Source: Mesobacillus persicus (GTDB lineage: Bacteria; Bacillota; Bacilli; Bacillales; Cytobacillaceae). From it: 64,000 nt of DNA. The stretch lies in the NCBI RefSeq assembly GCF_900109925.1, contig NZ_FOBW01000006.1:62001-126000 (forward strand), written 5' to 3'. A program made the translations under genes and the position numbers. Of this stretch, positions 5,311 through 37,661 are shown in pieces (position 1 is the first letter of the stretch; every line of letters starts with the position of its first letter). The notes beneath the pieces are model-generated. The model did no database searches, was not told the origin of the DNA, and was given only the letters and a program-made list of their open reading frames with translations.

Positions 5311-5720
5311 GGTTAATAACGTTCTGTAAGCCATGTTTTGTTCCATAGTGCTACAAGCGACAACGTCTCGCACACCGGTGGTAATCATCTATCTACAGAT
5401 GTAAGAACACCTGTCCTTCTCTTCGTTCATTTCCTCCAAGAAAGTGCCCCTACCATAGTTTGGGTTTCTCACTCGCGGGGTTTACCTCGTTCCACCCTTC
5501 CCATTTCTGAGAAGGCTACGTCACTGTGGCACTTTTATAGGTATTCATGCCTTATCGGTTAAACGACTTAGGCATTTTCCCTGCCGTCAGCCGCTATGAA
5601 TAGCGACTGCCCTGGCTTATGAATTGACCAGGCACGAACACTACGAGCATCTCAGCCCGTGCGAGCATGGACTTTCCTCTGCAGTAGCTGCAGCGATTAC
5701 CCGAACGCTATTAACGATTA
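5311..5720 (-). ncRNA. rnpB: RNase P RNA, type B
   Basis: Catalytic RNA of RNase P, which matures tRNA 5' ends. Conserved blocks are readable on the minus strand: GTTCGGGTAATCGCTGC at the 5' end, GAGGAAAGTCCATGCTCGC, the CTGACGGCAGGGAAAA-like stretch, AGTGCCACAGTGACG, GAGAAACCCAAA and, at the 3' end, AACAAAACATGGCTTACAG. P1 is 12 bp, pairing GTTAATAGCGTT at the 5' end with AACGTTATTAAC at the 3' end. The architecture is Bacillus type B. Exact ends are estimated from P1 and the promoter to within a few bases. Confidence 0.97.
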
Positions 5721-12094: not shown

Positions 12095-12213
12095 AGAAAG
12101 CCCGCTGTGATTACCTTAATGGGTGTTGTCCTGAAGTACAAATACGGAGGCTTTTCGTATAGTAGTTCGCACTAAAATTAAAAAGCAATTTGGGAAGTAA
12201 ATCAGAAAAGATA

Positions 12214-12243
12214 AATGCTTGGAGACCATGAGCTCCAAGCATT
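12214..12243 (+). terminator. terminator of the Crp/Fnr regulator gene
   Basis: AATGCTTGGAG, an 8-base loop and the complementary CTCCAAGCATT, followed by a T-run (12243-12247). It is about 120 bp past the stop codon; the sequence between shows no gene. Confidence 0.8.
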
Positions 12244-12284
12244 TTTTATTCCAGACAAGGACCGGTTAGCAAATAAGATACTAA

Positions 12285-12474
12285 AATAAGGGGAGAAATT
12301 CCTCTTATTGAGGAAATAGCACGAAGAATAGAGTAAATAGAGGGAAAGATTCCCCCTATTTACTCAAAAAACATGAAATGAACCATTTTGGTTCTCCTTA
12401 ACGGGAAAAACTCCCCTTATATCCCCCGAACCGAGCCCTATTCTGCAGGCTAAAGGGAAATACTCCCCTTATTC
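12285..12474. repeat. ~190-bp element with four palindromes (copy A)
   Basis: Four imperfect palindromes at 12285-12309, 12331-12365, 12399-12421 and 12451-12473. Each has a purine arm (GGGAGAAA or GGGAAA-like), a short centre and a pyrimidine arm (TCCTC or TCCCC), with AATA/TATT outside. Unit starts and the DNA between units align with the copy at 37257-37444. With the terminator at 12214 this accounts for most of the 517-bp gap between the regulator and yppG. Confidence 0.8.
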
Positions 12475-12611
12475 AAACAATCAGATGTAACTCATTTAAC
12501 CTCCGATGAAATCAGGTGGTTCAGATCAGAATAACAGGACTTTTAAATGTACCAGTGAGATTAACATCAGATGTTTTAGTGCTGTCAAAGGTATGTTCAT
12601 AAATGTAACTT

Positions 12612-30134: not shown

Positions 30135-30246
30135 CGTTACATTCATTCATGTTTCATCCCTCTGTCCCGGTCCGGTTTCGGATCTAGGCAGAACCATTTT
30201 ATATTCACCATTTTTTACACTAGGTGCAGTTCTATCGATACCGCCC
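30135..30246 (-). promoter_or_regulatory. candidate regulatory RNA leader of panB (possible pan motif)
   Basis: Transcribed leader between the TATAAT at 30253-30258 and the leader terminator. On the minus strand a hairpin pairs AGAAC-GCACC with GGTG-GTTCT across an A-rich internal loop, enclosed by CGGT/ACCG, then GGACCGGGACAGAGGGATGA, which could compete with the terminator stem (GGGATCC). The placement before panB fits the described pan motif RNA; I cannot confirm the consensus by eye. No T-box sequence is present. Confidence 0.5.
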
Positions 30247-30252
30247 AAAAGA

Positions 30253-37015: not shown

Positions 37016-37128
37016 AAAAAAGAGCTGCGAATTTGCATAACGGGTTCCGTTTCCTGTCTAAACCTGAAAATGCAATCGAAAATGTAGCCCAATTTGTCCT
37101 GCCTTTTGTATCTGTTTTTTTACTAAAA

Positions 37129-37164
37129 AATAAAATGGCTCAGTTCATTAACTGAGCCATTTTA
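37129..37164. terminator. long hairpin, terminator-like on both strands
   Basis: AAAATGGCTCAGTT and AACTGAGCCATTTT form a perfect 14-bp stem with A/T outside. About 115 bp past ypjC. Confidence 0.65.
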
Positions 37165-37256
37165 AATATCCATGTTTAGCTGCCTGAATTACTCGATAAT
37201 AGAGGATGGTTCCGTGATTATCCGCTCTTATTGATTGGGGACAGTTTTGTTTGATA

Positions 37257-37444
37257 AATAAGCGGAGAAATTCCGGTTATTTTGGAAAAAGCACTAAAAT
37301 TAGCTTAAATAGACGGAGAAATTCCGACTATTTACTCGAAAAAAGTGAAAACGGGTAATTTTTCTTTACTTAAGCGGAAAAACTCCGCTTATTTACCCCA
37401 TAATGTAGTTATTTTGCAAAATAACCGGAAAAACTCCGCTTATT
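37257..37444. repeat. ~190-bp element with four palindromes (copy B)
   Basis: Palindromes at 37257-37281, 37306-37334, 37371-37391 and 37420-37444, all of the form ...CGGARAAA..TCCG.... Unit starts are 50, 64 and 49 bp apart, against 50, 64 and 52 in copy A at 12285, and the sequence between units also aligns. Confidence 0.8.
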
Positions 37445-37556
37445 TTTTATAAGATAAATTATATATCAATTTGCGGATGAAATTGTAGAGGTACAACAGC
37501 CCTTGTATACGAATTTTTTAGTAATTTCATCAAACATGTACTTTATACCTATAAAA

Positions 37557-37597
37557 AATGAGTGTCAATTTCATATACAAATTGGCACTCATTTTAA
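37557..37597. terminator. hairpin upstream of the right inverted repeat
   Basis: AAATGAGTGTCAATTT and AAATTGGCACTCATTT pair around a short loop (one G:T). Terminator-like on either strand. Confidence 0.6.
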
Positions 37598-37661
37598 ATT
37601 ATATTTTTATTGTTTGTGATAGGAAACGGAACCCGTTAGGATTTGCAGCTCTTTCTCTAAC

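Follow-up and report, generated by a model that had tools for sequence, protein, structure and literature searches.

What keeps two palindromic elements alike across 25 kb of a bacterial chromosome, when the arms of their palindromes have changed together? The original prediction for the 64,000-nucleotide stretch of Mesobacillus persicus DNA analysed here (hereafter, the window) was that two copies of a four-palindrome element are held in shape as hairpins. Both copies lie where they had been placed (Table 1) and align over their entire length. The spacings first given, 50/64/52 and 50/64/49, stand as start-to-start values, but the palindromes are unequal, and measured from centre to centre the dyads are 51/61/52 bp apart in copy A and 51/61/51 bp apart in copy B. 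The unit pattern matched 16 times in the window, always within these two copies, against 1.98 matches expected from shuffles (maximum 6).

Searches of the whole genome and of its relatives, as proposed at the outset, returned about 40 near-full copies of the ~188-bp array in the same genome, A and B among them, as well as arrays in 4 of 6 genus relatives and in 77 of 151 family genomes. Single units matched 413 times genome-wide, compared to 11 times for a reversed control pattern, and only one of the genome's own copies overlaps an open reading frame of ≥100 aa. These other copies displayed neither random spacing nor loss of arm covariation, the outcomes that had been named as reducing the parallel changes to coincidence or gene conversion. 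A phage or plasmid origin of the array was dropped after 50,697 phage and 72,556 plasmid records gave no array match, and the array was rejected as a known RNA family after no Rfam family reached its curated threshold (best sub-threshold E 0.024); one of the Rfam searches returned no match of any kind.

Table 1 Features of the two array copies, their surroundings and other annotated RNAs in the window
Feature	Position	Strand	Basis or remark
Subfamily-A element remnant holding copy A	12116-12504	+	Alignment with paralogues, some retaining terminal inverted repeats (TIRs); ends approximate
Degenerate left end of this remnant, TTAATGGGTGTTGTCCTGAAGTAC	12116-12139
Copy A four-palindrome array	12285-12474	+	G-type half-sites; alignment, dyad pattern
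Copy A dyad 1	12286-12308	undefined
Copy A dyad 2	12337-12359	undefined
Copy A dyad 3	12398-12420	undefined
Copy A dyad 4	12450-12472	undefined
MITE-like element carrying copy B	37037-37638	+	602 bp; TIRs, empty site in relatives
TIRs of copy B element, TAACGGGTTCCGTTTCC...	37038-37058 and 37618-37638		21 bp each
Left target duplication of copy B element, GAATTTGC	37029-37036	+
Right target duplication of copy B element, GGATTTGC	37639-37646	+	7/8 identical to left
Left arm of interrupted bidirectional terminator hairpin, AAAGAGCTGC	37019-37028	undefined
Right arm of interrupted bidirectional terminator hairpin, GCAGCTCTTT	37645-37654	undefined
Copy B four-palindrome array	37257-37444	+	C-type half-sites; alignment, dyad pattern
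Copy B dyad 1	37258-37280	undefined
Copy B dyad 2	37309-37331	undefined
Copy B dyad 3	37370-37392	undefined
Copy B dyad 4	37421-37443	undefined
RNase P class B RNA, bacterial	5322-5708	-
pan motif RNA (Rfam RF01749)	30158-30247	-	Annotated cis-regulatory RNA

The gene in front of the array

The array starts about 5 bp past the stop codon of a conserved gene of ~220 aa. Of 145 loci, 126 have the array no more than 50 nt from the stop and 138 no more than 260 nt from it, and in the named collection the array lies within 80 nt of the stop in 67 of 80 loci. Twenty of the 21 intact close family genes are followed by the array in the same orientation, L119 being the exception, and a second array upstream of the gene is frequent. 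The genome studied here has one intact gene of this kind (G000:C33:49392-50051, locus L117), which lies outside the window. A promoter-like sequence, TTGACA ... TTAAACT, recurs upstream of the start codon (L117 1201-1300 and other upstream regions), and four loci (L186, L189, L195 and L201) contain whole arrays in tandem beside the gene, with a period of ~210-270 bp.

Judging from structural models, the product is predicted to combine an N-terminal catalytic domain of Vsr/DUF559 type (PD-(D/E)XK-like) with a C-terminal winged helix. For the N-terminal part (model pLDDT 89), Foldseek returned 3hrl, the homing endonuclease I-Bth0305I and R2 endonuclease domains; these matches are modest, with E values of only 0.004-0.03, and the Foldseek probability was 1.00 for I-Bth0305I and 3hrl. 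Weak Pfam matches to DUF559 and MTES_1575 agree with this fold, and a sequence-profile search of the PDB with the nuclease domain gave no match. All 51 sequences compared share residues D69, E82 and H89, which belong to a D...ExDG...H-like motif that resembles a catalytic motif. The structural matches of the whole-protein model were MarR-type winged helices, with the recognition helix predicted at residues 182-194. We rejected assignment to a defence system, as PADLOC returned just weak winged-helix matches.

The nuclease gene was found in 58 of 193 family genomes, 52 of which carry a single copy, and in 23 of 397 genomes order-wide. With a median dN/dS of ~0.11 it is under purifying selection. 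It is free-standing, with flanking genes common to both sides within some locus groups and not across most loci, and among the phage and plasmid records searched for the array it was present only in one 2.7-Mb Paenibacillus replicon. Genes and arrays co-occur: in the 151-genome set, arrays were present in all 41 carriers of the gene versus 36 of 110 non-carriers, a presence in carriers that is partly trivial because every nuclease gene brings its own array.

Homologues of 33-40% identity (four from Bacillaceae, one from Paenibacillus) have palindrome arrays of their own at the same position relative to the gene; in L124, L125, L126 and L131 (~32-36% identical) differing palindromes occupy this place. 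Where measured, the spacing of these arrays is 50-51 bp. L126 has four units ordered ++--, at computed spacings of 51/57/51 bp downstream of the gene and 50/57/51 bp upstream; L131 has two units at a computed distance of 51 bp and two inverted units recognised by eye; and the Paenibacillus homologue, 40% identical, has tandem palindromes each 51 bp, behind as well as before the gene. On the large replicon of Paenibacillus cellulosilyticus, the nuclease of 40% identity is flanked by long palindrome tandems of 51-bp period (L232, 1790-2220 and 3160-3700). Some of the distant arrays have extra copies within their own genomes. Units 1-2 and 3-4 of the close family resemble one another pairwise; an inversion of 3-4 relative to 1-2 was considered there and rejected as unsupported, direct similarity being equal or higher.

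Arm changes and the recognition helix

The arm changes themselves are as first described, namely double changes from G in copy A to C in copy B, with the partner base following, in units 2-4, and a G:T pair replaced by C:G in unit 1. Across 197 non-redundant copies, covariation within units was confined to the base beside GGA, and the pair next to it is mostly mismatched (A.C, C.C). Moreover, the G/C letter changes in concert across all eight half-sites, the correlation being phi 0.60 between units and 0.54 within them; shared ancestry inflates both values, and pairing in hairpins adds nothing visible to them. Because the correlation between units is at least as strong as that within units, the paired G/C change gives hairpins no specific support; it is the pattern to be expected if one trans-acting factor read all eight half-sites. 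Secondary structure of the arrays is possible, yet it is not the best account of the parallel changes, and the view that these reflect maintained hairpins is not specifically supported, given the phi values, the adjacent mismatch and a letter that tracks the helix of the neighbouring protein.

This tracking emerged from a scan of all 220 protein residues against the G/C letter, in which residue 186 came first and residue 182 second, both within the predicted recognition helix; the two were the best in the discovery set and were still the top two in a larger set. A changed helix accompanies 14 of 14 G-majority arrays as opposed to 9 of 81 C-majority arrays (Fisher 4e-11, a value that ignores ancestry). 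When ancestry is considered, the best tree, itself weakly supported, provides ~10 independent pairs, with 9.2 in the same direction and 0 in the opposite one (p = 0.004); restriction to well-supported branches leaves an underpowered comparison with one independent pair, the proteins being short and the tree poorly resolved. For loci outside the discovery set, the association between residue and letter had p = 0.028, in a set that included just two G-type arrays. From these sequence comparisons, we strongly infer that the palindromes are the predicted binding sites of the nuclease. Of the roles originally entertained for a conserved element, those of protein-binding site or mobile repeat are supported. 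What the comparisons show is the association of nuclease and arrays, their spacing, their conservation and their coevolution.

The resident nuclease (L117) carries D182 and K186, the predicted C-type helix. The first half-site has a G in 23 of 37 arrays of the same genome, including copy A, and many of the genome's own copies are therefore mismatched to its present enzyme. Such G-type arrays may date from an earlier enzyme or may have been multiplied by the TIR-bearing vehicles described below.

Elements that carry the arrays

Several of the genome's own copies, including copy B, sit in elements bounded by the TIR TAACGGGTTCYGTTT and by 7-8-bp duplications, and larger TIR-bearing elements of this kind with target duplications were found for subfamilies A and B. 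Copy A belongs, in degraded form, to an element that is sister to that of copy B; its remnant is truncated on the right ~30 bp beyond the core, and its closest relatives in the genome are 88-89% identical. A second element family around the array has a different TIR, GGCTCTRTTATTATTCATTGTTGATT (L064, L068, L071 and L072), and other copies bring, in place of TIRs, ~75-105 bp from the 3' end of the nuclease gene. For the array core itself and for the class C solos, we identified no TIR or target duplication; in one set of genomes the TIR-less solos have a recurrent left limit ~75-107 nt ahead of the stop, and elsewhere their limits vary. Since the core travels in such differing vehicles, we regard it as the shared part.

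Comparison with relatives shows that the element enclosing copy B was inserted. In the window, the element interrupts a terminator hairpin located between two convergent genes, and in L299-L303 and L307 the same gap is 31-267 bp long, lacks the element and contains an uninterrupted terminator-like hairpin. The corresponding gap of L305 and L306 holds a different array copy, with ~90 bp of the nuclease gene end and without the TIRs of copy B. The terminator region (37019-37654) has been hit by two distinct array-bearing insertions: the genome analysed here received the TIR element, L305/L306 an array copy with the nuclease end.

Proposed mechanism, rival explanations and known systems

We consider it probable that the array is the DNA partner of the chromosomal winged-helix nuclease, that its dyads are bound by this protein and that the pair operates like REPIN/RAYT. 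Each dyad would be bound, through half-sites of the form TARNSGGA, by the winged helix, which probably acts as a dimer; with the sites phased at 51 bp, two pairs of them would face much the same side of the DNA helix, allowing a multi-site complex to form. The gene resides in chromosomes rather than in phages or plasmids, is usually present in single copy and is often flanked by arrays, and solo arrays have spread to dozens of mainly extragenic sites. The resident enzyme would thus recognise short palindromic elements and, one inferential step further, may copy or rearrange them; some arrays, both window copies included, have also been carried inside TIR elements with target duplications of their own.

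Three other explanations have to be weighed against this one. The arrays could be operators for autoregulation or for a host regulon, with the nuclease fold retained in what is a regulator and not a spreading enzyme. The MarR-like winged helix, the phased multi-site layout and the position of arrays beside the gene would all suit such a role, which we nevertheless deem unlikely: among the 37 own copies with genes on both sides, 1 lies in a divergent (promoter) gap and 17 in convergent ones, and the three residues of the catalytic-like motif are invariant. Quite improbable, in our judgement, is a structured RNA, be it transcribed separately or as the 3' UTR of the nuclease message, with hairpins acting as stabiliser, terminator or protein-bound guide or antitoxin RNA. 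Its layout directly 3' of a stop codon recalls type III antitoxins and TnpB-linked RNAs, and both window copies greatly exceed their shuffles in folding (z -5.6 for copy A and -9.6 for copy B); however, folding is no more than moderate for arrays next to the nuclease gene (mean z -2.8), covariation is neither unit-specific nor found beyond one position next to a conserved mismatch, arrays occur upstream of the gene as well, no Rfam family reached threshold, and the inverted (++--) or tandem units of distant homologues, both at 51 bp, fit phasing on DNA. The array is not a free RNA motif.

It is likewise conceivable, though very improbable, that TIR transposons (MITEs) spread all array copies as passive cargo and that the nuclease is an unrelated neighbour. 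The TIR-bearing elements of the genome, copy B's among them, and the second TIR of another subfamily are what this explanation would predict; yet the core is common to subfamilies whose TIRs differ, other copies hold the nuclease 3' end instead, the L305/L306 copy, which is of this latter type, lies at the same terminator region without the TIRs, and neither the array's place after the gene nor its coevolution with the recognition helix is accounted for.

Returning to the array as DNA partner of the nuclease, the putative spread of arrays by the enzyme is the least tested step; both window copies are within a TIR element or its remnant, and movement by TIRs need not involve the nuclease. The 36 genomes that have arrays but lack the gene likewise count against this reading. 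We see the chances as evenly balanced that the system represents a hitherto undescribed Bacillales class of chromosomal enzyme plus repeat, in which a winged-helix Vsr-like nuclease recognises 51-bp-phased arrays and uses cutting and copying to spread them, an equivalent of REPIN/RAYT derived from a homing-endonuclease-type enzyme. Many bacterial interspersed repeats are known without a partner; here, a Bacillaceae-wide repeat family is linked to one enzyme gene, and coevolution singles out two residues and one base that are expected to touch. If the nuclease also spreads the arrays, it would be a second, independent enzyme class behind a REPIN/RAYT-like life in bacterial chromosomes.

Among known repeats, Bhal-1 of Bacillus halodurans is likewise a stem-loop family in a related genus, with 36 copies of 74 bp (PMC2267715); it differs from the array in this length, and no partner gene is mentioned for it. 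Like bcr1 and other bacterial MITEs, the array is short, non-coding, intergenic and partly mobile, copy B residing in an element bounded by TIRs and a target duplication, but its conserved part is internal, common to elements with differing or no identified TIRs, and it has a dedicated partner gene. The nuclease shares its predicted catalytic-domain fold and D...ExDG...H-like motif with Vsr-like/EDxHD homing endonucleases (I-Bth0305I) and DUF559, from which it differs as a free-standing chromosomal gene with a winged helix and phased arrays, absent from the phages searched. Titles and abstracts of the open-access papers in which DUF559 occurs contained nothing tying it to repeats.

The closest parallel is REPIN/RAYT, in which short palindromes flank a single-copy, largely vertically kept enzyme gene and are scattered through extragenic DNA, and enzymes that diverged have palindromes that diverged (PMC3116915, PMC8049555). 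Our system resembles it in its dispersed, extragenic, high-copy units and in a mostly single-copy gene with arrays behind and often before it. A classical RAYT was rejected, as neither of the genome's two Y1 genes has an array unit in the neighbourhood examined. We do not file the system under REPIN/RAYT because two defining features fail: the RAYT enzyme is a Y1 HUH tyrosine transposase and not a predicted Vsr/DUF559-like nuclease with a winged helix, and its unit is a doublet of two inverted REPs in place of four dyads at 51/61/51 bp. The enzyme class, the arrangement of four sites phased at 51 bp and the combination of both were absent from the libraries and open-access literature searched, whereas a resident enzyme with dispersed palindromes is, as a way of life, already known.
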